Part shown: piece by piece, positions 11,657-45,030 of the stretch
How positions within the stretch are numbered: the stretch's first letter is position 1
How the letters are laid out: each line of letters starts with the position of its first letter
Assembly (NCBI RefSeq): GCF_017052465.1
Contig: NZ_JAFHKT010000141.1
Coordinates: forward strand, 62,001 to 126,000
Length of the DNA: 64,000 nt
Origin: Arthrobacter pascens
GTDB taxonomy: Bacteria > Actinomycetota > Actinomycetes > Actinomycetales > Micrococcaceae
Reading direction: 5' to 3'
Translations under genes and position numbers: made by a program
The notes under the pieces: model-generated
The model's input: the letters and a program-made list of their open reading frames with translations, nothing else
What the model was told of the DNA's origin: nothing
Database searches by the model: none

Positions 11657-11836
11657 GGTGTTCACTCCTTCCAGGTATGAATCGATGTTCACCCCGTTCA
11701 GGCAAGATCGGCCAAAGTTTCCGGCAAGATCAGCGAAGGTCTTATCGGCGCGAGACACGCCAAGGCGCGGAAACGCGGAGAGATGTCGACCGCCTGAGAC
11801 ACTGAGGGCTGGCCCGAACCAATCAAAGGAGCAGCC

Positions 11837-12211: not shown

Positions 12212-12315
12212 TTTCGGATGCTCTCCTGGGCACTCTGAGGTAAGGCTTCCACCTTGTCCAACAAACGCGTAGCACTTGTTAGGCTGGATCAACCACAGAT
12301 CTAAGCGAGGCAAAC

Positions 12316-13098: not shown

Positions 13099-13108
13099 GG
13101 CGAATAAG

Positions 13109-13262
13109 TCCGGCTGAGCTGAGGCGGCCCTTCCCCGCATAACCGGTCCGGTCCCCGGCCGTTCAAGCGGGCGAAGGCCGTTCATGCGGTGGAGGCCACG
13201 GGCCGTTACCCGCGACGGCCTTGCAAGCGTTCACGCGGCCATGTGCCCAGCCCCCACTCGTC
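13109..13262 (-). pseudogene. Duplicated patch: intergenic DNA plus the last codons of a subtilisin-like protease gene
   Basis: 13109-13250 matches 15269-15409 along its length, including CCCGCATAACCGGTCCGG. In the second place this sequence is the spacer and the 3' end of the intact protease gene. Read on the minus strand, 13212-13250 still gives WAHGRVNACKAV, nearly the LWEHGRVNACKAV tail of the protease, then loses similarity. It is the stub of a former protease copy. Confidence 0.75.
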
Positions 13263-13286
13263 CGGGCGCTCTGCCGTTATCCACTG

Positions 13287-14135
13287 CTAAAGGCACTTGG
13301 GCTGGTAGGCCGGGTCAGCCGGACCGGACACCTTACCCAGCGCGTGGGCCACGAACTGGTGCACCACGGGGTCGTTTGGCGTCTGGTCATGTTCGAAGAC
13401 GTCGGCGGGGCACTTGTCCTGGATGGTGATGTTAGTGACCTGCCGCGCCGGACCGTTGAGGAACTGGCTGTTGTAGGGGATGACCACTTCGTCGTGGACC
13501 GTGGAGATGACCGTGTAGGAGGGACCTGCAACAGTATCCCCGATGGAGTTGAGCTTCTCCATGAACGCCGACCCTGCCTGCTGGTCGGCGCAGGCGGCAC
13601 AGCCCAGGCCGGTGTAGTCCGGATCCGGGACAAAGCCCGGCGGCGGGACGATCACACCTTCGGTGCCGTGGTTGGAGGGTGCGACCCCAATGAGCTGATG
13701 GACGTATTTGGCGCCGCCGAGAAAGCCAATGTAGTACCGGGGCATCATGCCGCCTTGGCTGTGGCCTACCAGATTCACTTTCTTGGCGCCGGTGGCGGCA
13801 AGCACTGACTCCACGAACGGTGCGAGTTCCTGCGCCGATTCGGCCACCGGCGCGGTGGCATACACGCCGTTCGTCTCGCCGTAGTTGAGGGCGAAAACGC
13901 AGTACCCGGCGCTCTTGAGGTAGGGCGACAGGGTGGACCAGTTCTTCTCCATGCTCTCGAAAGTTCCAGGCACCAGAATGACCGGATACGGGTGCTCGGC
14001 AGTCGGTTTGCAGGACCAGTCATTGGCTCCCGGCGGGGAAATCTCAACGACTCCGGCTTGGGCCGGAGCTGCGGCCAAGGAAATCGTAAGCGCAGCAACG
14101 GCGGCAACGGACAGGGCTCTGGTGAGCAGCGACAT
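13287..14135 (-). CDS. Secreted lipase/esterase (LipA/EstA-type alpha/beta hydrolase)
   Basis: 282 aa. A clear signal peptide (residues 1-27, hydrophobic SVAAVAALTISLAAAPAQA) indicates export. The mature part starts with the oxyanion segment PVILVPGTFES, carries the nucleophile elbow VGHSQGGMMPRYY (Ser126), and has candidate Asp and His late in the chain (STVHDEVVIP and PVVHQFVAHAL). Paired cysteines (CAACADQ, DKCPADVF, QPKCL) fit disulfides. Length and order match actinobacterial class I secreted triacylglycerol lipases. It sits between the two duplicated patches and so may have been brought in with the rearrangement. Confidence 0.9.
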   Translation of the reverse strand: MSLLTRALSVAAVAALTISLAAAPAQAGVVEISPPGANDWSCKPTAEHPYPVILVPGTFESMEKNWSTLSPYLKSAGYCVFALNYGETNGVYATAPVAESAQELAPFVESVLAATGAKKVNLVGHSQGGMMPRYYIGFLGGAKYVHQLIGVAPSNHGTEGVIVPPPGFVPDPDYTGLGCAACADQQAGSAFMEKLNSIGDTVAGPSYTVISTVHDEVVIPYNSQFLNGPARQVTNITIQDKCPADVFEHDQTPNDPVVHQFVAHALGKVSGPADPAYQPKCL

Positions 14136-14524
14136 GAAAACCTCTTTGTTCGTGTGTCAACGGAACCGGGGCAGAAAGTAGAAACTGGTTCGGCGTGCCA
14201 ACCAGGGTTTGCCCGGGTACTCAAATGTAGGCAGCGCGGAGTCCGGTGCGGCCATGGTTTTGCACGGATGTGCGCGGAATTCGGCTGCCTGGCGAAGCCT
14301 GTCTGCGCTGCAGTGACGCTCCTGTCCCGAGCCAAAGCTACTGGTCAGTAACCATTTTCTAGGGCGACAGCCAGGAAAAACGGCCAAACGCGCCTGCACA
14401 AAAGTGCAATGGCCGAATGGCAGTGAAGCAGGTCAGGGAACATCGGATGTTGCTGCCGAGGAATTCTCCGGCGAGGCTAGGAGCCGTGCCCTGCAGGTGG
14501 TCCGAGGCAGCCTGGTGGGCGCCG
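14136..14524. other. Upstream region of the lipase gene, no gene seen
   Basis: About 390 nt containing the lipase promoter region at its left end. Only short frames without homology cross it. The composition is less G+C-biased than the neighbouring genes, and it leads into the remnant of a GntR-type gene. No terminator or RNA is evident. Confidence 0.5.
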
Positions 14525-14662
14525 TCCGCATCGTGCTGACGCAGTACGTCAGACATGCGAACCGGCCCTTCTACTTGACCAAAATGCCTGGTTGCGGCAC
14601 GCGCCGGGCACATCTTGCTGATGCACTCGCTGCAGTCGTAGGCCGAACTAATATGCGGGGCC
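14525..14662 (+). pseudogene. 3' remnant of a GntR/UTRA regulator gene
   Basis: The plus strand gives IVLTQYVRHANRPFYLTK, almost the same as VLVLTQYVRHGNRPFYLAK of the intact regulator at 12.3 kb. After an extra A in AAAA (about 14580) the neighbouring frame continues CLVAARAGHILLMHSLQS and stops, again matching the end of the intact gene. Only the final 45 or so codons remain. The DNA-binding part is gone, so it is non-functional. Confidence 0.85.
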
Positions 14663-14678
14663 CGCTAAAGGGAAGTTT

Positions 14679-15263
14679 CTATCTTTCCGGGTCCAGCATG
14701 AACGACAGCCACCATGCGTCTCCCCTAATCTGAGACAGCCTCATCTGAGCATCAAAGTCCTTGAGCTTCCCGCGCGCTTCACAGGTGATCCAACTGCTGT
14801 TCGTGTACTGCAGCTCGCAGTTTTCCTCGTTGATGACCAGCTTTCCCTGCCACCCGCTGTCACGGATAATCCGTTCCACGTCTGCCCGCGTCATGCCCTG
14901 GCCTTCAGGCCCCGACCACTGCCGGTGCAGGGACGGGCAGGGTGCAGTCACCGCCCCGCAGGGAAGGAATGCCGTGGCTTGAACGATCCGCCCTGACCTT
15001 CCCTGCACATTCCCGAGCTTGAAGCCCTCAGGAACTGCAAGGTCGTCTGCTTCACGTAGCATCTCATTGGTTCTAGCCGCCTCCAGAAACCCGCTGGCAA
15101 CCACGAAGGCGGCAATCAGCAGCACCGTTGCACTGCTCAGGATCAAGGCAGTCCGGCGCTTCTTCAGGCTGTTGAGGACAAGAGCAATAACGCCGACAAG
15201 AACGGTGACCATGACAGACACAAGGATCACCGGGAAGTTCACTGTGAAGGCAGGGTATTCCAT
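14679..15263 (-). CDS. Membrane protein of unknown function (two N-terminal helices)
   Basis: 194 aa. Two hydrophobic helices (about residues 9-31 and 38-60) are separated by a short basic KKRR turn. A soluble part outside or inside the membrane follows (about 65-194) with four cysteines (FLPCGAVTAPCPSLHR, ENCELQY, ITCEARGK) that could form disulfides. The C-terminal half has alternating strands and an ADVERIIRDSGWQGKL helix. No family recognised. It occupies DNA present in only one of the two duplicated patches, that is, it interrupts the spacer between the GntR remnant and the protease. Confidence 0.7.
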   Translation of the reverse strand: MEYPAFTVNFPVILVSVMVTVLVGVIALVLNSLKKRRTALILSSATVLLIAAFVVASGFLEAARTNEMLREADDLAVPEGFKLGNVQGRSGRIVQATAFLPCGAVTAPCPSLHRQWSGPEGQGMTRADVERIIRDSGWQGKLVINEENCELQYTNSSWITCEARGKLKDFDAQMRLSQIRGDAWWLSFMLDPER

Positions 15264-15347: not shown

Positions 15348-16655
15348 CTAGTGCAAGGGGCAATCACCATCGACGGCCTTGCAGGCATTCACGCGGCCGT
15401 GCTCCCAGAGGGTGCCCGTTCCATCAATATTGTCAGCGGTGAGTTCGACCTTGTCGCGGACTGCATCGTTATCGATGTCGGCAGATGTGCTCCAGACAAG
15501 CGCGGCAACGCCGGCCACAATCGGTGAGGCCATTGAGGTGCCGCTGCCAATGTCATAACCCGTGGACCGGCCATTCTGCGTCCCCAGGACGAAGGGGTGG
15601 TTCGGGAAGGTCGAGTAGACATTAACACCCGGCGCCGCGAGATCCACCCATTTACCATAGGTCGAGAACGACGCTTTGACATCCCTGTTGTCCGTTGCAG
15701 CCACGGCAATAACGTTGGGATACGCGCCAGGGTAGATCTTGGCCTGCGTACCGGCATTGCCGGCCGCGGCTACTATCACCACGCCTCGGTTCCATGCGTT
15801 GTTGACGGCAGTTTCCAGCGTGCGTGACGAGACACGCTGTCCGAGGCTCATGTTGATCACTTTGGCACCGTTGGCGGCGGCCCAGCTGATGCCGTTTGCA
15901 ATGGCCGAGCTGGAGCCGGACCCGCTGTCATTGAGCACCTTGACATCCAGGATGGTGCAGTCCGGGCAGACACCGGCAACACCTATCGTGTTGTTGGCTT
16001 TGGCGGCAACGATGCCGGCGACGTGGGTGCCGTGGCCGTACTTGTCCTCAGGGTCTGCTTTGGGATCTTCTTTGGTGTCCGCACTCACGAAGTTGGCGAA
16101 TCCAACAACCTGCGGTGCGATGTCGTCGTGGACATTAGCCACCCCTGAATCGAGAATGGCGACTGGTGTGCCTTTCACGGTCGCGGCGGTCCACGCTTCG
16201 ACGGCATCGACATCGGCGTCCGCTGTGCCGTCGGCCGCCACCGGCGTGCCGTTGGCGCTGGTGAGAGACTGACCAGTGTTCTGCAGGGCGTACTGTTGCG
16301 GGAAGTACTGGTCATTGGTGGCGGCAGTAACCTGCTCGTCCGGCTCGGCGTACTCAACTACCGGGTTCCGGCTCAAGGCTTCGATGAGCTGCAGTTCTTT
16401 ACCGGCGGGCACCTTGATGAGTTGAGCGCCAGTGCTGCCGATACCGGGGCCCTCCCTGAGGCCGTGCTGGCGCAGGGCGCCAGCCGCCGCACCCTTGTCG
16501 CGGAATTTGACCATGATCTGTCCCGCAACATGTGATGACTGGGTCGCCGCGTTGCCCGGCGCCACGGCGTTGCCCGGGGCTGCCAGGGTGATTCCGCCGA
16601 ACCCCATGGCTACCGCGGCGACGCTGGCTATAACGATCTTTTTCATAAAGAGCAT
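15348..16655 (-). CDS. Secreted subtilisin-like serine protease (S8 family)
   Basis: 435 aa. Signal peptide at residues 1-26 (KKIVIASVAAVAMGFGG) and an inhibitor-I9-like propeptide (about 40-110, ending VVEYAEPDE). The catalytic triad is complete: Asp169 in VAILDSG, His208 in GHGTHVAGIVAAK and Ser374 in GTSMASPIVAGVAAL. The oxyanion Asn is in VIVAAAGNAG. Two Cys (CPDC) are close together, with further Cys at the C-terminus. The layout is that of thermitase/fervidolysin-like secreted proteases, which degrade extracellular protein after self-processing. The start could also be the ATG 9 nt later (MKK). The 3' end is shared with a duplicated stub at 13.2 kb. Confidence 0.93.
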   Translation of the reverse strand: MLFMKKIVIASVAAVAMGFGGITLAAPGNAVAPGNAATQSSHVAGQIMVKFRDKGAAAGALRQHGLREGPGIGSTGAQLIKVPAGKELQLIEALSRNPVVEYAEPDEQVTAATNDQYFPQQYALQNTGQSLTSANGTPVAADGTADADVDAVEAWTAATVKGTPVAILDSGVANVHDDIAPQVVGFANFVSADTKEDPKADPEDKYGHGTHVAGIVAAKANNTIGVAGVCPDCTILDVKVLNDSGSGSSSAIANGISWAAANGAKVINMSLGQRVSSRTLETAVNNAWNRGVVIVAAAGNAGTQAKIYPGAYPNVIAVAATDNRDVKASFSTYGKWVDLAAPGVNVYSTFPNHPFVLGTQNGRSTGYDIGSGTSMASPIVAGVAALVWSTSADIDNDAVRDKVELTADNIDGTGTLWEHGRVNACKAVDGDCPLH

Positions 16656-31854: not shown

Positions 31855-32088
31855 GAGGAGGGTGTCGAAGCCCTGATCCACCAAGTCCTCCAGTGCCATC
31901 CGGCCAGTGATGAATGGTTTGAGGTCCACCTTGCCCTCCTGCACCATCTTGATCACGGCAGGGTGTTCGCGGACTTAGGCGATGGTGCCGTGCAGGTCGA
32001 TCTCCTTGAGCACCAGCTTCTGCAGGTCCAGCGTGGCCGGTGCGCCCCAGCTGAACATGTTCGCCACCATTCCCCCGGCCGGACGGCG
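31855..32088 (-). pseudogene. C-terminal remnant of a zinc alcohol dehydrogenase (butanediol dehydrogenase-like)
   Basis: Minus strand: GGMVANMFSWGAPATLDLQK, LVLKEIDLHGTIA, then a stop TAA (31975-31977) where TAC (Tyr) is expected, then VREHPAVIKMVQEGKVDLKP and FITGRMALEDLVDQGFDTL in the same frame. These are the closing 80 or so residues of medium-chain Zn dehydrogenases of the 2,3-butanediol dehydrogenase type. The part before is missing, and the matching N-terminal piece lies at 39.4-39.9 kb on the same strand. Confidence 0.85.
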
Positions 32089-32231
32089 TCGTTCGACAAT
32101 AAGGCTATGCCGACGCAGGTGGGGCCAGTGATCACAGTTCGGGGCCCCTACGAGAAACATTCCAGCGCCCGCGCTCGTGGAACTGATCGCTAAGGTCAGG
32201 TTGAAGCCGCTGCTGTGGATAGAATACGCGG

Positions 32232-34283
32232 GTGAAAGCGCCTCAAGTGGTCTTGGACCTCGATAAGAAATCTCGGGTGGTCCTTCGAGAGGGACTCCTA
32301 GTCGATCGCAAGGGCGTTGAGGTCACAGTTCTTTGGAGTGACGGGTCAACCGATGATGTCCGACTCGGTCGCCATGGGGACCACATACTGCTTGCTACCG
32401 CGGCTGGTGGGCTAGGCCACCGAAGGCACGTCGACCCGGCTGGCGCCTCAGAGCTGGTGCGCTCGTCGCCTGCACAGGCTTTCGCGTTCGCCCTTCTCGA
32501 CTCATTAAACCCGCTGTCGAGCAAAGACCTCATCGCGCGCGTCTCGCAGGTATTCAGCGGCGATGTCAGCGCCCTTTGGAAGCAGGCTCGCTCGACTTTC
32601 GAGACGAACGAGAATGTCAAGGCATCGGGCAAGGGGACTGGCCTCAAGTACGTCTGGGTGGGGCAAACTCCGCCCGATGCATTTTCGGCTGGCCTAGCAG
32701 CCCAAATGCGCGGGCGGACAGCCATGAAAGAGAACACCGTGACTGCGGGACTCCATGCCGGAAATGCAGAGCGAGGCCGTGACGTTGCTCCGCAGGTCGC
32801 CGATGGCGCTGTCGACGGGCCAATGGATTCGGGAAACCGGAACGAGGGCCGAGGCAGCGCACGCAGTGCTGAGGACGGGCAAATACACCCGGCTGTCGAA
32901 CTCGTCCGCGCGACATCAGTCTCAGGCCAACTGCCTGAGAACTGGGCTGGGGTACTGGGCAGTGTCATGCGGAATCCTTTGGCAGCTGGGCTCGCTGTGG
33001 ACTCGCTGTCCGATGATGCGCTTCAAGCGGCCGTTCCGGCGCTCGGTCAAGCTGCTTTGATCCTGCAGGCCCTGCCGAGGGACAGCAAGGCTCTCAAGAC
33101 AATTGATGCGGTGCAATTGGCGGGACCCAAGGGCGCGGCCGCTCTGGTAGATGCGGCAGACGCCGAGTTGCGCAGTCTTGAGCCGGCGTCTGCTAAAGCG
33201 CAGGAGCTACGACGCGCCAGGGAATTCCTGATTCGGAGGCTGTTGAACTCGCCCTCGGTGGGTCTCCTCAGCCTGGACACTGTCCTTCGTGCCACCCGCG
33301 AGATGGAATCGCCGAAAGATGCTGCCAAGAAGGGCGAGTGGGTTGCTGAGGTTCTGGCGACCGTCATAGGCGCGATGGATCAGGACTCTTGGAAGAATCT
33401 CGCGCTCCAGGACAAGTCTGCGGTGGCCCGGCAGCTCACGTCCGTCCCACTGAATGCGCCCGGCTCAAGGGCACGCGTACTGGGGTGGATCTGGCGCAAT
33501 CACCCAGCAGATCTCGCCGACGAAATGTGGTGGCGGGGCGTGGAGTTTGAAGATCTGGCTTCGGTCGCCACCACGCCCTTGGCCAGCGCGCTCGAGAGCG
33601 ATGCGATAGCGTCCGCCGTAGTCAAGCCCTTGGTGGTTAAGAGGCTCGCGTCAGCCACGACGAGGCGCCAGCTGCTCACGTCGCTCGCCGCCCCCACTGC
33701 ACTTGCTCGCCTCATGGATGAAAGTGCCGTTCAGCAAGCGTTCGACCGAGTCCTACTGGATGACAACATCGGCCGGGCCTGGCTTGTGCGCCTCAGGAAT
33801 GAGACACGGATATCCGAGCTTGCTCACCAAGTAGAGGCTCTCACTCGCCAGGCGAGGGAGATGACGGAGCTGCTTGGCAAGGCCCAGGAAGCCGTGCGGT
33901 TGCGTGATGACCGGCTGCACCGCGTGGAGGCACGACTTGGCGAGGCCGCCGCGAGCACCAACGAGCTTCGCGAATCTCAGTCGCGCCAGATCAGGATCGA
34001 TGTCATGCGCGCCTTTGCGGGGCTCTGCGCGTACGTCGACGGGGCTGCCGACAGTCAGCCCGCCCAGCGCGTCCGGGAGCGGGTACGGCGAATGGCCGCC
34101 CGCGAGGGACTGACTCCGTCGGGTGCCCCGGGCCGGACGGAGCCCTATGACCCACAGCGTCACGATGTCATCGGGGAGCCGCCACTGCCCAACACACCAG
34201 TGACTGTCACCGGCATCGGATATACATGGGGCGAGGGTGCCGATGAGATCGTTCTCGTGCGCGCGATCGTCGAACGAACTTAG
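32232..34283 (+). CDS. Large protein with GrpE-like C-terminus, partner of the following Hsp70 (683 aa)
   Basis: 683 aa from GTG 32232. The N-terminus (1-60) is beta-rich. Residues about 85-165 look like a winged helix (LSSKDLIARVSQVFSGDVSA and wing GKGTGLKYVWVG), followed by a low-complexity linker and a large helical region (about 225-510). Residues about 525-590 form a coiled coil (VEALTRQAREMTELLGKAQE). The end gives a short helical bundle and then YDPQRHDVIGEPPLPNTPVT, VTGIGYTWGEGADEIVLVRA: the D-P-x-x-H signature and two-strand wing of GrpE. GrpE exchanges nucleotide on DnaK, and the next gene is an Hsp70. A dedicated, DNA-binding exchange factor is inferred. I know no named family with this full layout. 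Confidence 0.72.
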   Translation: MKAPQVVLDLDKKSRVVLREGLLVDRKGVEVTVLWSDGSTDDVRLGRHGDHILLATAAGGLGHRRHVDPAGASELVRSSPAQAFAFALLDSLNPLSSKDLIARVSQVFSGDVSALWKQARSTFETNENVKASGKGTGLKYVWVGQTPPDAFSAGLAAQMRGRTAMKENTVTAGLHAGNAERGRDVAPQVADGAVDGPMDSGNRNEGRGSARSAEDGQIHPAVELVRATSVSGQLPENWAGVLGSVMRNPLAAGLAVDSLSDDALQAAVPALGQAALILQALPRDSKALKTIDAVQLAGPKGAAALVDAADAELRSLEPASAKAQELRRAREFLIRRLLNSPSVGLLSLDTVLRATREMESPKDAAKKGEWVAEVLATVIGAMDQDSWKNLALQDKSAVARQLTSVPLNAPGSRARVLGWIWRNHPADLADEMWWRGVEFEDLASVATTPLASALESDAIASAVVKPLVVKRLASATTRRQLLTSLAAPTALARLMDESAVQQAFDRVLLDDNIGRAWLVRLRNETRISELAHQVEALTRQAREMTELLGKAQEAVRLRDDRLHRVEARLGEAAASTNELRESQSRQIRIDVMRAFAGLCAYVDGAADSQPAQRVRERVRRMAAREGLTPSGAPGRTEPYDPQRHDVIGEPPLPNTPVTVTGIGYTWGEGADEIVLVRAIVERT

Positions 34284-34292
34284 GAGTTTGAA

Positions 34293-35942
34293 GTGGCTCG
34301 AGAGCAGTTCTTAGGTGTCGACTTTGGCACGAGCACGACACTGATCGCGGAGAGCATGCCGGCGGGCAGGCCGACAGTGGTCCCAATCGGTCACGCCGAA
34401 TCGTGGATGCCCTCCGCAGCTGCGGTCAGCGCTGATGCCTTGGTGGTCGGCGAGGACGCACTCACGCACAATCCCGCCGCTCTGATCACTTCCGTCAAGC
34501 GCTGCATCACCGGACGCGCAGTAGTCGCGCGGAGCGCCGACGGTTCCGTCGAACGCGACGCCGACGAGGTCATCGGCGCGGTCCTTCGCGAGATCGCAAA
34601 CCGTGCCCGCGCTGATCGGCTCCCCATCTCCGATAAAGGAGTCACGCGACTCGGCTGCCCTGCAATGTGGGACGCGGATCAGCGTGAAAGGTTGCTCGGC
34701 CTCGCCGAGACGGCGGGCTTCAACGTCGGCCCCTCGACTCTGATTGATGAGCCGATCGCCGCTGGACTGAACTGGATCGGCCAACGAACGGAACAGAGGG
34801 AGTACTTCGACGAAGAGCGCGTGCTCGTGTTCGACATGGGCGGAGGAACGCTCGACGTCGCCGTCCTTGACGTCACGACCGGTCCGCTCCGGGATCCTGA
34901 AATCTACGTCCTCGCCTCAGACGGCCTCAATGAGGCCGGTGACGTGCTCGACGGAACGATCGCCGCTGACCTGGAGATCGCTCTCCGCGACCAAGGGATC
35001 GAGCTCGAGGCGTTGCCCGACGCTGATCTCGCGAGGGCTTATCTGATGCGCGCAGCAGCTGAGGCGAAGGTTGACCTCTCGACACACCACGAGACGCAGG
35101 TGCACGTCGGCTATCAGGCTGGCGACCTTCCCAGCCTGCACTACACCCGCGAGCAGCTGGAGGATGCCATGCGTCCGCAACTGGATCGCGCCTGGTCCCT
35201 GATCCTCTCGACCCTGCGCGCGTCATACCTGACCCGTGCCGAAGGTGCGGTCACATCTGCCCTGCGCCAGATTTCGGAAGAGAGCCTCGCCTCAAACGTT
35301 CATCACGTTCTCCTTGCCGGGGGCATGAGCCGTGCCTCCGCGGTGGAGAAGTTCCTTAGCAGGAAGCTACCCAGCGCCAGGATCCACACCTTCCCCGGCA
35401 GGAACGGTGCGCGGGAGGCGATCGTTGCGGGGCTTGCCGAGAACACTTCCTACGAGCAGGTGAATCTGCATCGTCCCGCCTTCGACTTCGTGCTCGAGTT
35501 CTCGGCGGGAGGCGGGGACCTGACCCGGGTGCCGCTCTACCGAGCACACACGAAGCTCTACGATTGGTGGCAAGCACTGAGCCGGGACCGGGTCAGGTAC
35601 GAGTGGCCAGATGGCGCCACCGCGGTCAATCGCGATTCAGCTCGATCATTGCCAGCAATTGGCTACGGCCGCCTCGCTGTCTATGCGATGGACGGAACGC
35701 CGGTCGCTCTGCGGCATAACGAGACCGATGTGCCTGGATTGAAGGTTGCCTTCGGCTATGACGGTGTCCGCTTCGACCTGTCCACGGAGGGGCACGTCAA
35801 TATCACCGATGGCCGCGGAACGAGTCAGTCATTCCGCGTCACGCGCTGGCCTGTGCTCACGGGGGGGTTCGCCCGCCTTGCCCTTCCTGTCGAGGCGCCG
35901 GACTGGCAGCCAATGGAACGCCGTGACTGGGACGTCAAGTAG
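34293..35942 (+). CDS. Divergent Hsp70 (DnaK-like) ATPase
   Basis: 549 aa from GTG 34293 (TTAGGAG upstream), 9 nt after the GrpE-like gene. The actin-like ATPase domain (about residues 1-375) has all loops: phosphate-1 GVDFGTSTTLIA (Asp10), phosphate-2 VFDMGGGTLDVAVLDV (about 179-194) and adenosine VLLAGGMSRASAVEKFL (about 340-355). The C-terminal part (about 385-549) has beta character but does not look like the normal substrate-binding domain with its DnaK lid, so this is not a housekeeping DnaK (over 600 aa). The coding end overlaps that of the helicase by 8 nt, tail to tail. It probably remodels the helicase or its target using the upstream exchange factor; this is inferred from context. 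Confidence 0.88.
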   Translation: MAREQFLGVDFGTSTTLIAESMPAGRPTVVPIGHAESWMPSAAAVSADALVVGEDALTHNPAALITSVKRCITGRAVVARSADGSVERDADEVIGAVLREIANRARADRLPISDKGVTRLGCPAMWDADQRERLLGLAETAGFNVGPSTLIDEPIAAGLNWIGQRTEQREYFDEERVLVFDMGGGTLDVAVLDVTTGPLRDPEIYVLASDGLNEAGDVLDGTIAADLEIALRDQGIELEALPDADLARAYLMRAAAEAKVDLSTHHETQVHVGYQAGDLPSLHYTREQLEDAMRPQLDRAWSLILSTLRASYLTRAEGAVTSALRQISEESLASNVHHVLLAGGMSRASAVEKFLSRKLPSARIHTFPGRNGAREAIVAGLAENTSYEQVNLHRPAFDFVLEFSAGGGDLTRVPLYRAHTKLYDWWQALSRDRVRYEWPDGATAVNRDSARSLPAIGYGRLAVYAMDGTPVALRHNETDVPGLKVAFGYDGVRFDLSTEGHVNITDGRGTSQSFRVTRWPVLTGGFARLALPVEAPDWQPMERRDWDVK

Positions 35943-38900
35943 CAGGACCGAGGAGCTCAATCACTGCGACCGTCCTGCGGCTCATCGAGAAGGCCCGCTT
36001 CTCCTCCAGCTCGGCCTCAAGCTGCTCGAGGTCCTGACCGAGGTTGCGGATGCGACCTTCTGCCATCCGGATGACCCTCGGATCGCGTTCCCGCTCCATA
36101 ACGACGTCCAACGTGGCTCTCGCCTTAAGGATCTTGACCTCAAGACTCGCCTTGCGCGCGTCGAGGCGGGCCCTTACCAACGCCTCGTTGTCCAAACGTC
36201 TGCGTGCCTCCTCCTCACGGTGCCGAGCCCAGCTGACCTCCTTAAGCGATATGAGGAAGTGCTCCATCGGCGTTGGCGTGGCTCCAGTAGCTTCCTCCAG
36301 CGATCCGCTCGCCACGGCCTCCAGCAACTGAACGCCGATGTCCGGCGCAACGGCCCCGGTCTGGATATCGATCGCCGTTGACCACAATTCCTTGGTTGGC
36401 CTCACTCCGGTCGACGCTACCAAGTCCACCGTGACGGCATAGCGAGTGCCGGGCGGCAGCGTTGCAACCCTGCCTATGCCATAACGATGCAACCCGAGCC
36501 TGTCCTGTTCCAATTGGTGCAGTGCCACGTCAACGATGGGATGTCGGACAGATAGGAGTTCCACGTCTCGCGTGCTTGCCAGGTCGGCGTCGAAGGTCAC
36601 TTCGATTGGTTCTCCGTTGCTGATACGGCCTTGGAACAGTAACGCTGACCGACGGCTCGCTCCCTGGGTGCCTCGAAAGCGATAGATGAGGTCGGAGAGC
36701 TCAATACTTCCCCGTAATAGCAGGATGCCGGGATGCTCCGACTTCTCGAGCTTGCCTCCAGTGGCTCGCAGTATGTGCTCAATGAGGGTGCGCACTTCTG
36801 TCGTTCCGACATACCGCCCGTCCGTTGGCCCTGATTCCGAGAGGCCTTCCACCTGCATCTCATCAATCGTGGACAGAGTGGCGCGCTCCTCATTCAGTCG
36901 CCGAAGGTTCGCCGCCCTCGTCTCGATGGCCGTTGCGATTTCTTCCGCTCGCTGCCTTCGCTGGGAATCGTCCAGTCGCGGATCAAGGATTTGGTTAGCC
37001 AGGTCACGGAAGTCGTCCCTGAGGATGGGCTCGAGGTCTCCAATTGAGTTCTGAAATACGCCGATTCGGGTGTATAGGCGTTCCAAGATGTCGGACTCGA
37101 TCGTCCCCGGCACATGCATGTTGAGGATAAGGACCTTCTCGTGCTTTTGGCCGAATCGGTCCAGACGACCGATTCGCTGTTCGACTCGCATGGGGTTCCA
37201 GGGTAGGTCGTAGTTCACCAGTACGTTGCAGAACTCGAAGTCCAGACCCTCCGATGCCACCTCGCTCGCAATGAGGAAGTCGAATTTCCCATCGCGAAAG
37301 GCATCGATGATCGGCTGGCGATCCACCATGTGGATACCGCCGTGGAGCTGCTGGACCCGGAAGTCTGAACTCAGGCGTTCTGCCAAGTACGCGATAGTCC
37401 CCCGAAAGGTGGAGAAGATTAGTGCCTGACGCAAGCCTTGTTCGCGCAAGTGCGTGAGCTGCTCCAGCAGGGCTTCAAACTTCGAGTCCTCGCCATGCCA
37501 CTCGAAGGATGTCCGGTCCTCGCGCATTTCCGCCAAGTCCTCTTCGCCGTACTCCTCGTCGTAGTCCTCCACCGAGCGGGCGAACTGGTCTGCGTTGGCA
37601 GAGAGTCGCGCCTGCATGGCCGGCAGGCAGCTCGCGACCTGTCGCAGCGGCATCTGCATGGCGAAGCCGGGTGGCGTTCCGTGCGCGCGAGCCCGGGACA
37701 TGAAGTGGTCGACGACGCGGTCGTAGAAGCCCTTCTCATCCGGCGACCAGTTCACGACAACCTGATGGGGTTCGCGCACTGCCTTGGCGTCAGGTACATC
37801 CACCTTCCGGGTCCTCGAGAGCACGCCGCTCAAGGTGTTCAGCTCGGAAACGAGGCGTTTGACTTCTGCCCGTTTGCCCGCTTCCAGGGGTGCAGCAGTG
37901 TCAAGAAGCTCCTCTAGGCGCGCGTAGTCCGGGCGGTTCGAGACGGCGCGGCCGAAGGGCAGTGTCTTGATCGACCGCAGGTGGTAGCGCAGTGCTGCGC
38001 CGGATGAGCCGTGAGAGATGCCGCGTTCGATCGCGTTGAGGTGCTGATTCGGCTCGAGCTGCATATGGAAGATTTGGGAGTCCTGGTACATGCCGTCGTC
38101 GAGCAGAGTCAGCAGGTTGTACAGGTCGTCAGAGCGCAGGTTGATGGGGGTGGCCGACAGGAACAACAAGTGATCGGCCCAATCGGACAGCAACCCGCCT
38201 AGCAGGTTCGACCTCGTGCCGGTATTGCGCAACACATGGGCCTCGTCGACGATGACAAGATCAAATCTCGGTCGGATCCGGGTCAGCTGCTCGAGCACGT
38301 CACTCGCACTGCGGAGGGATTCCACCGAGATGATCGCGTGGATTTCCGGGTCTCGACCGGCGAGGAGATCGTCGGCGAGGTCAGCCAGCTTGCGAGGCTT
38401 GATGACCTCGAGGTCACGGTCGAAACGCCGGCTCATCTCCATGCGCCATTTGTGAGTCAAGGAGGAAGGCGTGACCACAAGCGTGCGACGAAGCGGTGAC
38501 CTCTGCTCCAGCTCGCTCCACACCAGTCCCGCCTCGATCGTCTTTCCGAGACCCACCTCGTCCGCCAGAAGTAGCCGCCCGGTCGGAGAGTTGAGGATCT
38601 TGAGCGCAGGGATGAACTGGTAGGCACGAAAGACCGTTTTTGTCGCTCGGTAGGAGTACAGGGTGTTCGAGAGCGGCTCGCTCAACTTCGTCCACGTCAG
38701 AGTCATTGCGATCTCCCGTGCCGAAGCGGGTGCCGAGGTTACCCAGAAGGCTGGATCGCGTGGGTCTCCATCCACCTTCTGGAGAGACTCTGGCGCGACG
38801 TGCTGCAGCTCGCCGTCGACACTCACTTCAATCACGTAGCCAGCGCGCGTGCGAGTAACCCGCCGCACCCGACCAATGCGATCGGACCCGAGCACCTTCA

Positions 38901-39291
38901 CGACGTCCTCGGGCGCAAACGAACTTGTGCCGACGAAGGGCAGACCGTCCTCCCACTGCTCAACCAGGTCCTCTCGAGCCTCCGCGAGGTGACGCATCCC
39001 TCCGTCCGCAGTGAATCGATGGCGGGCGGTTGCACTTGGCCTTTCTTGGCCCTCTCCACGGACGACGAGGGTCTCCCATCGACCCTTGCGGTAGACCCCG
39101 TACACACCGTTGAAGAGATTGCCGCCGGAATATCCGGGCGGGAGCTGACGGACGTCGGCGTCGAGCGCCTCCAACTCTTCGACGTCCGGCCCCGTTAGTT
39201 CACCGCGAACGAGGACCCGCTGGGCTCCGATCTCTTTCAGCCAAGCAAGCCCAGATTTCAGGCCCCGATAGACCAGGTCATCCATCGACAT
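35935..39291 (-). CDS. SNF2-family (RapA/HepA-like) DNA helicase/translocase
   Basis: 1,118 aa from ATG 39291, with GAGAGAGG 9 nt upstream. The frame continues 40 codons further into DNA of low coding quality. The N-terminal 110 or so residues are of unknown fold, followed by a Tudor-like barrel (SDRIGRVRRVTRTRAGYVIE). Helicase lobe 1: Walker A LLADEVGLGKTIEAG (about residue 240-250), DEAH in VIVDEAHVLRN (about 348) and LFLSATPINL. Lobe 2: ALIFSTFRGTIAYLAERL, then FLIASEVASEGLDF and MRVEQRIGRLDRFGQ. A long C-terminal arm with charged coils follows (about 900-1118). ATP-driven translocation on DNA is expected. Partnership with the convergent Hsp70/GrpE-like genes is inferred from shared borders. 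Confidence 0.9.
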   Translation of the reverse strand: MSMDDLVYRGLKSGLAWLKEIGAQRVLVRGELTGPDVEELEALDADVRQLPPGYSGGNLFNGVYGVYRKGRWETLVVRGEGQERPSATARHRFTADGGMRHLAEAREDLVEQWEDGLPFVGTSSFAPEDVVKVLGSDRIGRVRRVTRTRAGYVIEVSVDGELQHVAPESLQKVDGDPRDPAFWVTSAPASAREIAMTLTWTKLSEPLSNTLYSYRATKTVFRAYQFIPALKILNSPTGRLLLADEVGLGKTIEAGLVWSELEQRSPLRRTLVVTPSSLTHKWRMEMSRRFDRDLEVIKPRKLADLADDLLAGRDPEIHAIISVESLRSASDVLEQLTRIRPRFDLVIVDEAHVLRNTGTRSNLLGGLLSDWADHLLFLSATPINLRSDDLYNLLTLLDDGMYQDSQIFHMQLEPNQHLNAIERGISHGSSGAALRYHLRSIKTLPFGRAVSNRPDYARLEELLDTAAPLEAGKRAEVKRLVSELNTLSGVLSRTRKVDVPDAKAVREPHQVVVNWSPDEKGFYDRVVDHFMSRARAHGTPPGFAMQMPLRQVASCLPAMQARLSANADQFARSVEDYDEEYGEEDLAEMREDRTSFEWHGEDSKFEALLEQLTHLREQGLRQALIFSTFRGTIAYLAERLSSDFRVQQLHGGIHMVDRQPIIDAFRDGKFDFLIASEVASEGLDFEFCNVLVNYDLPWNPMRVEQRIGRLDRFGQKHEKVLILNMHVPGTIESDILERLYTRIGVFQNSIGDLEPILRDDFRDLANQILDPRLDDSQRRQRAEEIATAIETRAANLRRLNEERATLSTIDEMQVEGLSESGPTDGRYVGTTEVRTLIEHILRATGGKLEKSEHPGILLLRGSIELSDLIYRFRGTQGASRRSALLFQGRISNGEPIEVTFDADLASTRDVELLSVRHPIVDVALHQLEQDRLGLHRYGIGRVATLPPGTRYAVTVDLVASTGVRPTKELWSTAIDIQTGAVAPDIGVQLLEAVASGSLEEATGATPTPMEHFLISLKEVSWARHREEEARRRLDNEALVRARLDARKASLEVKILKARATLDVVMERERDPRVIRMAEGRIRNLGQDLEQLEAELEEKRAFSMSRRTVAVIELLGPAT

Positions 39292-39445
39292 CAGACGCGG
39301 ACCTCTCTCGTAGTGATCTGCCCCGAGTTTGGTTGATCTTGAGGAGATCGATGTCGTCGTGTGACCGGCAATTCCATACAGCCATCTTCCCCTGCAGACC
39401 ACTGAGAGCAATTTTCGACACTCTGTTGTCTATAGGAACATCTCT

Positions 39446-39880
39446 ACTGCGTGGTGCGCCACGGACAGCGGCTCGATCAGCGCCGCCTCGTCCAGCGGGA
39501 TGTCGCCGATGGGGTGCACCCACCGCGCGTCCACCACTATTTTCTCGCTCAGCACTCCCCCGCCACCGGACAGCCCGATGAAGCCCATCTGCCGGCACAG
39601 GTGGTACTTGCCCGCCTGGCACATGTAACAGTCGCCGTCCACAAAATAGGGCTCGACGACGACGTTGTCCCCTTCGCCAGGCCCGGCACCCCTTCGCGCA
39701 CGTCAGAGACAGTCCCGGAGAATTCGTGCCCGATGGTGATTGGCGCGTCCTCGCTGGACAGCGGGGTGCGGATGCCCCGGGGCGGGCACGAAGATCGGCC
39801 CCTCCAGGTACTCGTGGAGGTCCGAGCCGCAGATGCCGCACCAGGTGGCGTCGATCGAGGGCCGAATCGCTCGGCGGCTT
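39446..39880 (-). pseudogene. N-terminal remnant of a zinc alcohol dehydrogenase
   Basis: Minus strand from about 39880: ATWCGICGSDLHEYLEGPIF with the catalytic Cys, then after a one-base shift at a CCCC run the sequence APITIGHEFSGTVSDV, a further shift, and then VVVEPYFVDGDCYMCQAGKY, HLCRQMGFIGLSGGGG and IPLDEAALIEPLSVAHHAV. Homology stops at about 39446. Structural-zinc cysteines are visible in CYMCQAGKYHLC. This is the first 150 or so residues of the gene whose last 80 residues lie at 31.9-32.1 kb; the middle is missing, and the helicase/Hsp70 module is in its place. Confidence 0.85.
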
Positions 39881-40925: not shown

Positions 40926-42398
40926 ATGCAACTTGTGAAGGGCCCAGTTTGGGGCGGAGGGCTCGACGGTCGATACCCCGGACGATACCCGCTATCTGTA
41001 GAGCGCCATGTGCTCCGTTCTGTGGCAGAACTTATGCCTGGCGTCACGACTGTAACGAGGAATGCGCGCTACTACAGCCTGCATAGCTATATCGCGCACT
41101 ATGCGTTGGCACGAGGATTGACGGAGGTGGAATCACTAGAATTTCTTCGCCGCTCGGAAACGGTAATGGCTGCGATCTCCATACTCCATGAGGGGCAACA
41201 TGCATGGCTCCCGCGACCCCATGGGGCGGACTACCTCGAAAGCAGGATTAAGGACGGACTCGACCTTGATCGGCTTTCTCAGCCAGGTGCATACGCAGGG
41301 CGTTCCATTGGCTACAAAGGTCAATATCAGGCCTCCGAAGCTCTCTTGGGGCTCCTGCCTAGTGGTAGCAACGAGCAAACTCCGGCATTCGATGCGACCC
41401 GGATGGACCATGGGTTCCGTGGACTTTTTGAGATAACGCGCCATGATCATATAAGTGAAGAGCAGCTGCGAACGAACAGCCACCTCTGCGTCTGCGGCTC
41501 CCGAACCGAATCAGATGGGCCTCTGCTCAGGGAGTTGCTGTTAGCAAATGAAGCGGAACCGGGGAGCGATCACGACAAACGGCGACAAACCGTGCGGATG
41601 ATGCTCCGGCTGATACAAATGAGTTCGCCCTCCAACATCAATTCCGAAATGACTGACACACTGAATTTCTCCCCCTTGGTCGGCCAGGATGAGCTGCTTT
41701 CTCAACTCGATGTCGTAAAGGCCTGGCAGGGGGTGGCACTTCGGAACCGCTCCGTTGGAGCGTGGCGAGGACTGTGGGCCGACCTCGTAGAAGCCGTCCC
41801 GGGGCTTTGCCATCGATCTGAGTTCTCTTCCCCGTTGGTCGACGCCCTACCAAACGTCTCAGTCGGGCAGTACGTTGGCTCGTTTCCCCCCGTCTGGGCA
41901 TCCGATGGAACAGCTCTACCCGCGGAACTGGACCAGTCCGCTGCATCCGAAACAGCAATGGAAGCACACATGGCTACGCTTTTCGTCGGATCCATGCGCC
42001 TGGCAGGGATTCCCGTCCATGTCAGACCCTATTTCGAGTCGAAGAGTGACTCACTCCAAGAGCTATCGCCGACTTGGCTATCTGCCCGAGTTCGCGAGTG
42101 GGACGGGCGCCCGCTGCGGGACTTCGCACAACATGTCGTCGAGCTGCTCCTGCATAGGGCGAACAGGCTCTCGCTGAGGAAAGCGAGGTTCGACGCATCG
42201 CAGGGAAACGTCAAGATTCCGACTCGGATCTTCTTCAGGGACGACCTAGTCTTCAAAGACTCGAACGAGGGCGGCGGCAACGTCTCTCTCCGGTGGGCCC
42301 CGCTCGTGCACATTCTCTCCGGCATCGATCTGACCATCCGAGACGAAAACGAGCACTGGCAGATCACCGATCGAGGAGCTGAGGCACTTGGCGAGTAA
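40926..42398 (+). CDS. Protein of unknown function, first gene of the PLD operon (490 aa)
   Basis: 490 aa from ATG 40926 (CAAGGAATTCT before it). It opens with GPVWGGGLDGRYPGRYPLSV, then VTRNARYYSLHSYIAHYALA, a long helical body with DATRMDHGFRGLFEITRHDH, a CVCGSR pair near residue 185, and a C-terminal winged-helix-like end (WAPLVHILSGIDLTIRDENE). It has no transmembrane segment and no known catalytic motif. It overlaps the nuclease-like gene by 11 nt, so the two are almost certainly made together. G+C and codon use look more relaxed than in the Wadjet genes, suggesting different origin. No family name that I can support. Confidence 0.72.
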   Translation: MQLVKGPVWGGGLDGRYPGRYPLSVERHVLRSVAELMPGVTTVTRNARYYSLHSYIAHYALARGLTEVESLEFLRRSETVMAAISILHEGQHAWLPRPHGADYLESRIKDGLDLDRLSQPGAYAGRSIGYKGQYQASEALLGLLPSGSNEQTPAFDATRMDHGFRGLFEITRHDHISEEQLRTNSHLCVCGSRTESDGPLLRELLLANEAEPGSDHDKRRQTVRMMLRLIQMSSPSNINSEMTDTLNFSPLVGQDELLSQLDVVKAWQGVALRNRSVGAWRGLWADLVEAVPGLCHRSEFSSPLVDALPNVSVGQYVGSFPPVWASDGTALPAELDQSAASETAMEAHMATLFVGSMRLAGIPVHVRPYFESKSDSLQELSPTWLSARVREWDGRPLRDFAQHVVELLLHRANRLSLRKARFDASQGNVKIPTRIFFRDDLVFKDSNEGGGNVSLRWAPLVHILSGIDLTIRDENEHWQITDRGAEALGE

Positions 42399-45030
42399 TT
42401 ATCAACAGATTCCAAACCCTTTTCCGATGCTTCTCGAGGAGGAACGGACTGGGCAGGTGCAGGCGAGAGAGGCCCTTTTCCTGACGTTTAACGTTGATCT
42501 TGCCTTCTTCGAGGCCCAAGTCCTTGGCACCTGTCTGGCCACGGGTGCGCGAGTGTCCGTCATCGCAGATGGAAACGTCTGGGCACCGGATCCGCGGGCG
42601 GTGCGACATGCGGGGCACTCGTACAGCGTCGGCCTTGTTACAGGACGCGCCGCATTTCACCCCAAGGTTGTCATCCTTGCAGGCCAGGAGAGAGTTCAAG
42701 TAGCTATAGGCTCGGGTAACCTGACGCTTGGCGGATGGCAATATAACGATGAGGTCTGGATCCAATTTTCCGGTGACAAGACGTCGCACCCAGTGATATT
42801 CCATCAGATTGCCGAGTGGCTCCTGGGGTTCGCGGAATTCCGGTGGCTCGACGCCGACTCAAGCGATTCGGTTCGAAGAACGTCCGCACTTCTACAACGT
42901 CTCCTCGATCAGGGCGCGGCAGTTGATACTGGCCACGTGTTTATTACTTCCGCCGAGGAGCCGATTCTTCTTAGCCTCCCATCTGGGCCAGTGTCGGAAC
43001 TCCGCCTACACGCACCGTTCCTGGACAGTGCCATGGCTGCGACTTCAAAGTTGCACGAAAGGTTAGCGCCTCAGAAGTCATCCTTACTTCTCCAACCTGG
43101 TCTGACGGTCTTCGACCCTGCCGAAGTACAAAAGTGTGCGGACAAATTGGGAATTGACGTTCAGGTGCAAGAAGGCGACCTCAAGAAAAAGTACCGTCAC
43201 GGAAAAGTAATTTGGTGGAGCTCCGACGGAGTTCCTCAAGCCCTTGTCGGCAGTCCAAACCTTTCAGGCGCTGCGTTATTAAGAGCTTGGCCATCTGGCG
43301 GGAACTACGAGACGGCAGTTATGGGACCTGCTTCCTCCCTCACCATTCCAGATGGACGCTCGACCGATGCGACCACCGTGAGTCCAGCAAGTACCGGAAC
43401 GGCTTACCCCTCACTACCGATGGGACCTTCAATCAGGTCAGCCCGAGCCGTAGATGGTGATTTGATGATTGCGCTGTCTGGCCCGTCGGCGACAATTTTG
43501 GAATTGGAAGCGTCCGAGTTCAGGGACCCTCCTGAACAATGGCGGCTGCTCGGATCGATCGAAGCAGGGCAAGTAGAAGTCCGGTTTGCCGGTGCGATCA
43601 GTGCCGTGAGCAGGGTCCGGCTTTTTTGGCATGACGCAGGGACGAAAATCAGCGGACCGCTCGTGTTCGTCATGGATCCACTCAAGATCAGCGCCGCTCC
43701 CAGGGTCCCGTCGAGCGCAAAGTCGTACAAATCGCCCACGCTGGGTGAGCTATGGCAGGATGCCGGGCGCGCTCTCGATTTCTTGGACAAAGATTTCGCG
43801 GCGCTTCGGGAAGTATCCCTGCGCTCTATTGGTCCAAGGCCGACGGTGGTTGGAGAAGGCGCGCCGTCCAGGCAGCCTCTCCCCGCTGAAGAGAAAGTGA
43901 ACGTCGAAAGCCCGTGGCTGTGGGATCTTGAAGCGGCATCACGCATTCAAGGCCCACTCTTGACTGCGTTCGTGTTGGGTTTACCTCCAGCCCCCGCTTC
44001 GAGTGACGAGGTGGTAGCACCACCCCGATGGGCTGACGTCCTAGTGGACGACAACGAGGCTGTCCTCGACGACGAACACGATGATACGGTCGCCGATGTC
44101 ATCACGGAGGTTTCGGATACGGAGGCGTCAGCCCCGGACCATTCCAAATCTCCAGAAGCGGATCGACGACGACGTAGAAAACGATGTGCTCAGTGGGTGG
44201 CAAGCATCGATGATCAGCCCCCGTTCGTTCAGCTCGCCATGCTTCGCATAGTCACGAGTTTCTTTAGCGCCGGCAATTGGGATTCGTCGGATGTAGAGCC
44301 TCTGCGGCTCATGACTACCCTCGTCCGGCACCTAGCCGGAGAACCGATTCCCGACGAACTCCAAGCCTCCGTTTCCAGCATGACGCTCGTAAGTTGCGCC
44401 GTAATGCGGGGCGCAACCGACCTCCGGACGACAAACGAATCAACGATCACATATCGAAGCATTCTGGAGAGCGCAGCGACTCAGCTTGGGCACTTCGACG
44501 AAGACTTGGCTTCGGAATACTGCCGAACGTTAGTCGGTCACGGCTCTCAGACACTACGTCTTGACCATGTGCAGCATGTAATCGAGAGCGATCTGACCGG
44601 TGATGAGTTCAGGGAGGCTCGTGCGGCGTCAGTGCAAGCGGGGTGGGAATTCCTGAGCCAAGGTGGAACCAGGGTCTTTGTGCAGGGCAAATTCACAAAC
44701 CCAGAGTTGGCTGCCATCACCGTCGCCGGCTGGATTGATCGAGACGATCCTCCACCAGTCTGGGCCATCAGCCAGAATGGAAACTGGTGCATGTGCATAT
44801 GGGAGCGTCCCAACCTCATCATCGCGGATGGCAGGGGTCCCAAGCCGATCTGGAAGCATTTCCGTCTCGCGCCCCATATGTCACCCGCCGCGTTTGCCAA
44901 TCAGCGGCGCTCTGACGACTCGTATTCGAACGGCAAGCAGCGGGTGGCTCGCCCTTGGCTGCCATTCCCCGAGGCCGAACGAGCACTGGATCGGTGGAAC
45001 ATGGCCGGGCCAGCCCCGCTGCTGCCTTGA
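42388..45030 (+). CDS. Phospholipase-D-like protein with two HxK motifs, probable nuclease (880 aa)
   Basis: 880 aa from TTG 42388, overlapping the previous gene (GAGGAG 11 nt before). The N-terminal 300 residues have the PLD layout: FLTFNVDLAFFEAQVLG, VIADGN, then motif 1 FHPKVVILAG followed by VAIGSGNLTLGGW (about residues 90-115), and motif 2 RHGKVIWWSS followed by ALVGSPNLSGAAL (about 270-300). The Lys and Asn of both HKD half-sites are present; the Asp is replaced. PLD-type nucleases of this sort cut DNA or RNA without metal. The middle (about 330-560) is beta-rich and the last 250 residues are helical. It ends 128 nt before a small gene and 617 nt before pglW. The target is unknown. Confidence 0.82.
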   Translation: MASNYQQIPNPFPMLLEEERTGQVQAREALFLTFNVDLAFFEAQVLGTCLATGARVSVIADGNVWAPDPRAVRHAGHSYSVGLVTGRAAFHPKVVILAGQERVQVAIGSGNLTLGGWQYNDEVWIQFSGDKTSHPVIFHQIAEWLLGFAEFRWLDADSSDSVRRTSALLQRLLDQGAAVDTGHVFITSAEEPILLSLPSGPVSELRLHAPFLDSAMAATSKLHERLAPQKSSLLLQPGLTVFDPAEVQKCADKLGIDVQVQEGDLKKKYRHGKVIWWSSDGVPQALVGSPNLSGAALLRAWPSGGNYETAVMGPASSLTIPDGRSTDATTVSPASTGTAYPSLPMGPSIRSARAVDGDLMIALSGPSATILELEASEFRDPPEQWRLLGSIEAGQVEVRFAGAISAVSRVRLFWHDAGTKISGPLVFVMDPLKISAAPRVPSSAKSYKSPTLGELWQDAGRALDFLDKDFAALREVSLRSIGPRPTVVGEGAPSRQPLPAEEKVNVESPWLWDLEAASRIQGPLLTAFVLGLPPAPASSDEVVAPPRWADVLVDDNEAVLDDEHDDTVADVITEVSDTEASAPDHSKSPEADRRRRRKRCAQWVASIDDQPPFVQLAMLRIVTSFFSAGNWDSSDVEPLRLMTTLVRHLAGEPIPDELQASVSSMTLVSCAVMRGATDLRTTNESTITYRSILESAATQLGHFDEDLASEYCRTLVGHGSQTLRLDHVQHVIESDLTGDEFREARAASVQAGWEFLSQGGTRVFVQGKFTNPELAAITVAGWIDRDDPPPVWAISQNGNWCMCIWERPNLIIADGRGPKPIWKHFRLAPHMSPAAFANQRRSDDSYSNGKQRVARPWLPFPEAERALDRWNMAGPAPLLP

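Follow-up and report, generated by a model that had tools for sequence, protein, structure and literature searches.

A three-gene unit inserted into a dehydrogenase gene

The subject of this analysis is a 7354-bp unit within a 64,000-nucleotide stretch of Arthrobacter pascens DNA (contig NZ_JAFHKT010000141.1, positions 62,001 to 126,000), which we refer to as the window. The unit holds exactly three genes. These encode a 683-amino acid protein with a C-terminal GrpE-like domain (termed the scaffold here), a 549-amino acid Hsp70, and, on the opposite strand, a 1158-amino acid SNF2 translocase (Table 1). The 3′ ends of the hsp70 and SNF2 genes overlap by 8 nt. A sequence-only reading of the window had described these open reading frames (ORFs), their overlapping ends, and a discrete insertion of ∼7.3 kb, and all three observations hold.

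The two dehydrogenase remnants that border the unit align in order, at 86–89%, to one zinc alcohol dehydrogenase gene (butanediol-dehydrogenase-like) that is intact in two relatives (L142 and L143). Between the two flank alignments, 282 nt of the dehydrogenase gene are absent from the window, and the unit therefore represents inserted or substituted DNA. The two insert-end stretches tested share no 9-nt repeat, either inverted or direct, and a scan for promoters and terminators returned 0 promoter-like sites and 1 terminator-like site, fewer than in shuffled sequences. The copy of Arthrobacter ipis IA7 (locus L049) sits at another site: neither window flank matches the L049 stretch compared, and the right flank has no match in the A. 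ipis genome at E ≤ 1e-10.

Relatives were collected by scanning 84,980 genomes with the Hsp70 alone, requiring two exact 8-residue motifs, which yielded 70 loci. As the scan was blind to the partner genes, these were not selected for. Thirty-eight loci (L049–L086) carry full-length Hsp70 relatives (tblastn E of 4e-63 or better), all of them actinobacterial, with two or three copies in some genomes; because of the exact-motif scan, this number is a lower bound. The remaining 32 loci (L087–L118, E of 9e-20 or weaker) were excluded from all counts as generic or partial Hsp70s. Among these, L111 (a 6-kb contig with 39% over a short stretch) could be an overlooked partial relative. The Hsp70 is present in 2 of 295 genomes of the family and the scaffold in 2 of 246 genomes of the phylum, the window genome being included in both counts.

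Table 1. Features of the inserted unit and its borders (window coordinates)
Feature	Position	Strand	Basis
Inserted unit, splits zinc alcohol dehydrogenase gene	32092..39445		Flank alignment to L142/L143
Scaffold protein, 683 aa, C-terminal GrpE nucleotide-exchange domain (predicted)	32232..34283	+	ORF, profiles, model
Small β-barrel, residues 1–58	32232..32405	+	Model, hidden Markov model (HMM) matches
Winged-helix domain, residues 59–145	32406..32666	+	Model, winged-helix rows among VIA matches, HMM matches
HEAT-like helical domain, residues 220–509	32889..33758	+	Model, PP2A-A/importin-like matches
GrpE unit (predicted): helix 512–606 and β-domain 627–682 with F/Y-D-x-x-x-H	33765..34277	+	Profiles, model
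Hsp70, 549 aa: nucleotide-binding domain ∼2–386, β substrate domain ∼390–517, no helical lid	34293..35942	+	PF00012, structure matches
DrmD-like SNF2 translocase, 1158 aa, helicase core residues ∼260–790	35935..39411	-	PADLOC/Pfam/NCBIfam, homologs
Dehydrogenase 3′ (C-terminal) remnant	31859..32091	-	ORF, flank alignment
Dehydrogenase 5′ (N-terminal) remnant	39446..39856	-	ORF, flank alignment

The scaffold protein combines a GrpE-like domain with a HEAT-like domain

An AlphaFold2 model of the scaffold, built from 38 sequences (mean predicted local distance difference test 87.3; predicted template modeling score, pTM, 0.51), comprises a small barrel (residues 5–57), a winged helix (∼60–142), a disordered linker (163–215), and a helical domain (220–509), followed by a single 95-residue helix (512–606) and a terminal β-domain (627–682). 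The label “SH3-like” for the barrel derives from its strand pattern, with no fold match behind it. The middle domain resembles PP2A-A and importins with Z scores of 6–8, a range common for helical repeats. The sequence-only reading had proposed a winged-helix-like N terminus, a coiled coil, and a GrpE-like C terminus; the β-barrel and the HEAT-like domain are additions to that architecture.

The first sign of a GrpE relationship was a match with E = 5e-5 to a GrpE that was recognized by eye, lying between dnaK and dnaJ. Two sequence profiles then placed GrpE of Thermus thermophilus (3a6m) at the top of the Protein Data Bank matches: profile A5 (E = 1.8e-4), composed of 23 long scaffold proteins including that of the window, and profile A6 (E = 8.5e-5), composed of 17 rows of shorter relatives, one 292-amino acid protein, and the last 125 residues of the window scaffold. 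Over the GrpE part, the model matches the same structure at rank 2 in Foldseek (TMt 0.73, prob 1.00), and the complex-bound GrpE 1dkg_B (with DnaK) is listed weakly among the Foldseek matches. VIA superposes model and 3a6m with a Z score of 7.8 (3.6 Å over 154 residues). Since Z scores below 8, or below ∼13 for repeats and long helices, may reflect merely a common arrangement, the sequence profiles are the firmer ground for the assignment. Profile and fold together predict a GrpE-like C terminus, in line with the original proposal, and the Pfam GrpE model has no match to the window scaffold at E ≤ 0.1.

Such a domain could be no more than a structural relic, holding the Hsp70 but inactive in exchange, as might be suspected from its divergent sequence and from the failure of the Pfam model to detect most members. 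Yet the D-x-x-x-H loop, a G-Y pair, and residues of the terminal strand are invariant or nearly so across the relatives, and the GrpE-domain protein adjoins an Hsp70 with an intact core in 39 of 39 loci. We therefore regard a relic as very unlikely.

The Hsp70 lacks the helical lid but retains its core

The window Hsp70 matches the Pfam HSP70 family (PF00012) with 75.5 bits, compared with a cut-off of 20.6. Superposed on DnaK structures, its model aligns with Z scores of ∼30 over the ATPase domain, and the β substrate domain aligns partly in several rows. After the β substrate domain, the model ends in 30 disordered residues, and the helical lid (SBD-α) is absent from it. The intact nucleotide loops and the non-standard C terminus noted in the sequence-only reading are thus both recovered, the latter now described as a β substrate domain without its helical lid.

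Twelve of 16 checked core positions are identical throughout the 39 family members as well as in two DnaKs from actinobacteria. These include Asp-10, Thr-13, Lys-69, Glu-153, Asp-181, Thr-186, and Asp-188, which we take to be catalytic; both DnaKs carry the same letters (Asp-8, Thr-11, Lys-70, and so on). At the four variable positions, the window residue is retained in 28 (Ser-14), 38 (Thr-15), 35 (Arg-70), and 26 (Arg-347) of the 39 proteins. Beyond the last folded part, the C-terminal tails show lineage-specific endings (for example, R-x-W/Y-D-x-K or K-E/D-W/Y-A-P-P) that might serve as docking tags.

The SNF2 motor is DrmD-like

For the SNF2 protein, the best PADLOC model is DrmD with 461 bits. 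The NCBIfam DrmD model scores 339.5 bits against a cut-off of 610, and NCBIfam RapA reaches 195 bits. An SNF2 translocase had been anticipated from the sequence, but the accompanying assignment as RapA/HepA-like was dropped in favor of DrmD-like on account of these scores (195 versus 461 bits). The true start of the protein probably lies near position 39291, where most homologs begin to align. All 22 sequences share an invariant Walker A stretch, D-E-A-H, and S-A-T, and Q-R-I-G-R-x-D-R-F-G-Q also holds; the A-S-E-V stretch varies at 5 of 10 positions. Given these motifs and the Hsp70 core that is identical in all 39 members, both ATPases look active.

Similar SNF2 proteins (38–43% identical to that of the module) are also found in a second setting. 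In loci L127–L132, the SNF2 gene lies beside a gene of a separate partner family of 620–670 amino acids, which is 35–53% identical among five loci and partial in L131, and no Hsp70 or GrpE match was present in the stretches searched. DrmD was again the best model for the one SNF2 protein tested from this group, and two tested partner proteins are weakly UvrD/GajB-like. The SNF2 match in L131 falls in two separate frames. This two-gene cassette is possibly a separate defense system.

SNF2 and HEAT parts are gained and lost together

A GrpE-domain gene adjoins the Hsp70 gene in 39 of 39 loci including the window (the L080 contig starts inside it), and an SNF2 gene lies convergent to the Hsp70 gene in 23 of the 39 (L067 being cut by the contig end). 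The three genes, whose separate occurrence in most genomes would have spoken against a common system, are thus not found mostly apart. In the 22 loci that can be measured, the stop codons of hsp70 and SNF2 range from 55 nt apart to 92 nt overlapping, with 11 overlaps.

The domain content of the scaffold follows the presence of the motor. In every one of the 23 SNF2-bearing loci, HMMs detect the barrel, the winged helix, the HEAT domain, and the GrpE part, with a low HEAT score (75–86 bits) in the two from Streptomyces. Beyond these 23 loci, the HEAT model matches a fragment in L069, and the barrel model matches L075 but none of the 14 pairs outside the SNF2 branch and not L069; the winged-helix model matches 37 of 39 loci, the exceptions being L069 and L080. 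Fourteen GrpE–Hsp70 pairs from Micromonosporaceae (L070–L074, L076–L083, and L085) have the GrpE part but neither HEAT nor SNF2; 13 of them also have a winged helix. In one of these loci (L073, 3697–6388), the short GrpE-like gene is present in two copies with a 254-amino acid Hsp70-related ORF between them.

Two loci have lost both the motor and the HEAT domain. In L075 (Streptomyces sp. ISL-100; module at 8587–9912 and 11695–12072), the SNF2 gene is reduced to a remnant of its C-terminal 126 amino acids. The Hsp70 is kept, and the 441-amino acid scaffold retains the barrel, winged-helix, and GrpE parts without a detectable HEAT domain. L069 (Micromonospora globispora) has no SNF2 match and just the last fifth of the HEAT domain, although the contig extends upstream enough to show more. 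SNF2 partner and HEAT domain are therefore gained and lost together, and from this, the main new evidence for HEAT as the link, we infer that HEAT and GrpE together probably couple the motor to the chaperone cycle, through a contact between HEAT domain and SNF2.

In an Hsp70 tree with the two DnaKs as outgroup, the SNF2-bearing rows fall on one branch of 25 rows (support 91/97) with both losses inside. Most simply read, this tree suggests that an older winged-helix-GrpE/Hsp70 pair acquired HEAT, barrel, and SNF2 once. The SNF2 tree requires 2 changes and, with long outgroup branches, recovers the module SNF2 proteins as one clade in 19% of bootstraps, so that a single origin is neither proved nor excluded by it. 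The three proteins co-diverge over 22 loci with r of 0.90–0.93, a level that none of 2000 permutations reached.

A dedicated assembly chaperone would account for the tight linkage and the coupled loss of HEAT and SNF2 as well: Hsp70 and scaffold would just fold or stabilize a large, unstable SNF2 protein and have no regulatory part. It fits poorly with the 14 loci in which the GrpE–Hsp70 pair occurs without SNF2, with the persistence of the pair after SNF2 loss in L075 and L069, and with the related SNF2 motors that occur without an Hsp70/scaffold pair. On balance, we consider an assembly chaperone improbable.

Spread by plasmids and viruses was considered and rejected on the basis of the following searches. 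Among 72,556 plasmid records, tblastn found nothing for the scaffold (E ≤ 1e-5) or the Hsp70 (E ≤ 1e-15). The SNF2 protein matched two Sphingobium plasmids (36%, E ≤ 1e-60), and the one inspected has hypothetical neighbors and no annotated Hsp70 or GrpE. Of four scans of viral contigs, one was empty and three gave distant viral Hsp70s alone, on four contigs, with 22–27% over the full length; for three of these four contigs, a BLASTP comparison covered all three module proteins. On the 18-kb contig L009, a gene for a 292-amino acid winged-helix/GrpE-like protein (11911–12789) is directly followed by a GmrSD-like gene (12799–15036; E of 2e-27 to the GmrSD protein of L049), and neither the module Hsp70 nor the SNF2 protein has a match there.

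Most module loci adjoin known or candidate defense genes

The window copy is flanked on either side by genes of Wadjet (JetC and JetD) and of a bacteriophage exclusion (BREX)/Pgl system (PglW, PglX, BrxC-PglY, and BrxHI) that we take to be type 2, which confirms the defense-island setting proposed for it. Between the insert and the BREX genes (40926–45030) lie genes for a 490-amino acid protein without a match and an 880-amino acid PLD-domain protein (weakly ZacB-like, 34 bits). At 15348–16655, the window encodes a subtilase-like protein (PADLOC subtilase 99.5 bits, IetS 45 bits).

Defense genes, known or candidate, are neighbors of at least 16 of the 21 other module loci (L067, on a 5.3-kb contig, was left out). 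Neighbors were counted if they belonged to the cluster of the L049 GmrSD protein, which was named by Pfam, or had a PADLOC match with E ≤ 1e-40. The GmrSD cluster is represented beside seven module loci; it has members in 7 of 24 loci in the SNF2 branch versus 0 of 14 outside. PADLOC identified ZacB and ZacC beside L051, DrmD and DrmMI in L052, PglW in L066, a type I methyltransferase in L050 and L054 (in L054 together with a restriction enzyme), PDC-S68 in L059 and L064, PDC-S37 in L062, a Druantia/kinase-like protein in L055, and a kinase-like protein in L058. L056 was counted because its neighbor falls into one cluster with the L055 neighbor. The kinase matches are generic, and the PDC entries have candidate status. 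By contrast, the neighbors of the SNF2-less pairs look mostly ordinary (two-component, transport, and TPR proteins) among the best 25 of 153 Pfam families, which also include two each of nSTAND1, NB-ARC, and AAA_21, families that can be defense-related; a HerA-like ATPase occurs in L078. The contrast between SNF2-bearing and SNF2-less loci rests on Pfam families and protein clustering.

From this setting, the module likely serves defense. It might instead be a RapA-like complex for transcription or DNA maintenance that has a chaperone of its own and rides in islands by chance, and the similarity of the motor to the RapA family (195 bits) points in that direction. The motor is nevertheless the better match to the defense SNF2 family DrmD, and the defense neighbors at 16 of 21 loci and the patchy, inserted distribution are at odds with a chance passenger. 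We give such a non-defense complex little credence.

Comparison with known systems

The DrmD profile, the best model for the module SNF2 protein, connects it to DISARM. Membership in DISARM was rejected because the score lies under the NCBIfam DrmD equivalog cut-off (339.5 versus 610 bits) and because Humibacillus (L052) possesses a separate DrmD (1268 bits), together with DrmMI, ∼2 kb upstream of the module. In addition, the module has no match to DrmA, DrmB, or DrmC; the 880-amino acid PLD protein outside the unit matches DrmC with just 14.8 bits.

An HSP70 paired with GrpE, as in the module, has been described in the GAP1-N2 GTPase-centric conflict systems, where both occur in ∼14% of neighborhoods, mainly of actinobacteria and firmicutes (Kaur et al. 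2020; PMC7159879, as far as the accessible portion goes). That portion describes no SNF2 or HEAT-fused GrpE together with the HSP70/GrpE pair. Conversely, Pfam reports no GTPase, GAP1, FNIII, or DnaJ component in the module. No GAP1 plus TRAFAC GTPase was present among 7 window proteins; for the neighbor proteins scanned (54 and 75), the analysis covered the best 25 families.

Type III CoCoNuT systems center on McrB GTPases and contain CnuD, an Hsp70-like protein whose Walker A-like motifs are reported to be degenerate, according to the part of the source available (PMC11090510). The core of the module Hsp70, in contrast, is invariant, its partner is an SNF2 motor, and by Pfam none of the three module proteins is an McrB-type GTPase, which in CoCoNuT systems goes with CnuB/CnuC. 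With the housekeeping GrpE–DnaK pair, the module shares a GrpE composed of helix and β-domain, the nucleotide-binding domain of Hsp70, and the β substrate domain. It differs in the fusion of GrpE to barrel, winged-helix, and HEAT-like domains, in the missing helical lid, in the SNF2 partner, and in its patchy insertional distribution.

The sequence-only reading knew of no named system of this make-up, and none turned up. Of the three module proteins, two lack a significant match in PADLOC (2023). No system of the same composition was found in the open literature, a coverage that leaves most subscription papers and the current DefenseFinder lists outside, and the portions seen of PMC8195603, PMC7824862, and PMC3710099 describe no such system.

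A proposed chaperone cycle wired to a DNA translocase

Of all claims made here, the best supported is that of one physical unit, in which the HEAT domain would join an SNF2 motor to a lidless Hsp70 with a built-in exchange factor. We further think, with slightly better than even confidence, that the three genes of the insertion form a defense module, which couples a DNA translocase to the cycle of a dedicated Hsp70. In the mechanism that we favor, the nucleotide state of the Hsp70 would license the motor on invading DNA. The scaffold would dimerize through its GrpE helix, act on its own lidless Hsp70 to drive ADP release, and hold the SNF2 motor with its HEAT domain, whereas barrel and winged-helix domains may dock on nucleic acid or on a partner. 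ATP-bound Hsp70, reset by the built-in exchange factor, would keep the motor assembled but silent, or would load it. An infection-linked change, such as invader DNA or a phage protein, would then free the motor, which might travel on foreign DNA and block it or pass it to neighboring nucleases.

Several points weigh against this interpretation. The pTM of 0.51 for the full-length scaffold leaves its domain arrangement unsure. Support for the GrpE assignment is not independent between profiles A5 and A6, which overlap in the window protein; the Foldseek E value for 3a6m is just 0.028, no whole-model match reaches 0.001, and the Pfam GrpE model (E ≤ 0.1) matches 6 of 23 long and 1 of 17 short proteins (best long match 1.5e-4). 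The HEAT model was built from SNF2-bearing rows, even if protein length (∼210–290 versus 600–800 amino acids) gives the same split. The branch support of 91/97 is below the strong level of the tool, with the base of the Hsp70 tree open, and co-divergence is expected anyway from vertical descent of a linked cluster. Related SNF2 proteins exist in 6 of 394 genomes of the class (L127–L132) without the Hsp70 of the module and beside another protein family. Pfam reports no nuclease or other effector domain in the three module proteins. Finally, 5 of the 21 loci (L053, L061, L065, L068, and L086) have no defense neighbor or were partly examined, and the neighbor comparison was made without a random-locus control.

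Alternatively, Hsp70 and scaffold might act as a guard that senses a phage protein or an overloaded folding state, with SNF2 as the downstream trigger or effector. The β substrate domain kept in the Hsp70 would suit such a sensor. Chaperone-dependent phage sensing also has a precedent in bNACHT25, which needs host DnaJ to detect a phage coat protein, as stated in the accessible part of the source (PMC12169576). Pfam detects no J-protein in the module, and winged helix and motor point to nucleic acid. A guard function thus seems unlikely to us, if less so than the alternatives discussed above.

Returning to the chaperone-controlled motor, its most novel form is an immune machine in which an Hsp70/GrpE ATPase cycle, a HEAT adaptor, and SNF2 are combined, the nucleotide state would time the attack, and the whole would have arisen when a stand-alone winged-helix-GrpE/Hsp70 pair captured a DrmD-like motor. 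We advance this form tentatively, at somewhat less than even confidence. Eukaryotic remodelers that contain actin-related proteins, members of the same ATPase fold superfamily, are a possible parallel. Each domain of the module comes from a known family, and the novelty lies in the wiring. That HEAT and SNF2 come and go together provides a direct, testable prediction of the binding interface, for which the GrpE–Hsp70 pair without SNF2 represents a natural control. If the interpretation is true, a DNA motor of immunity would be timed or switched by the ATPase cycle of a folding machine, an arrangement unmatched among the systems found, and the DrmD-like SNF2 family would gain a second, chaperone-controlled setting.

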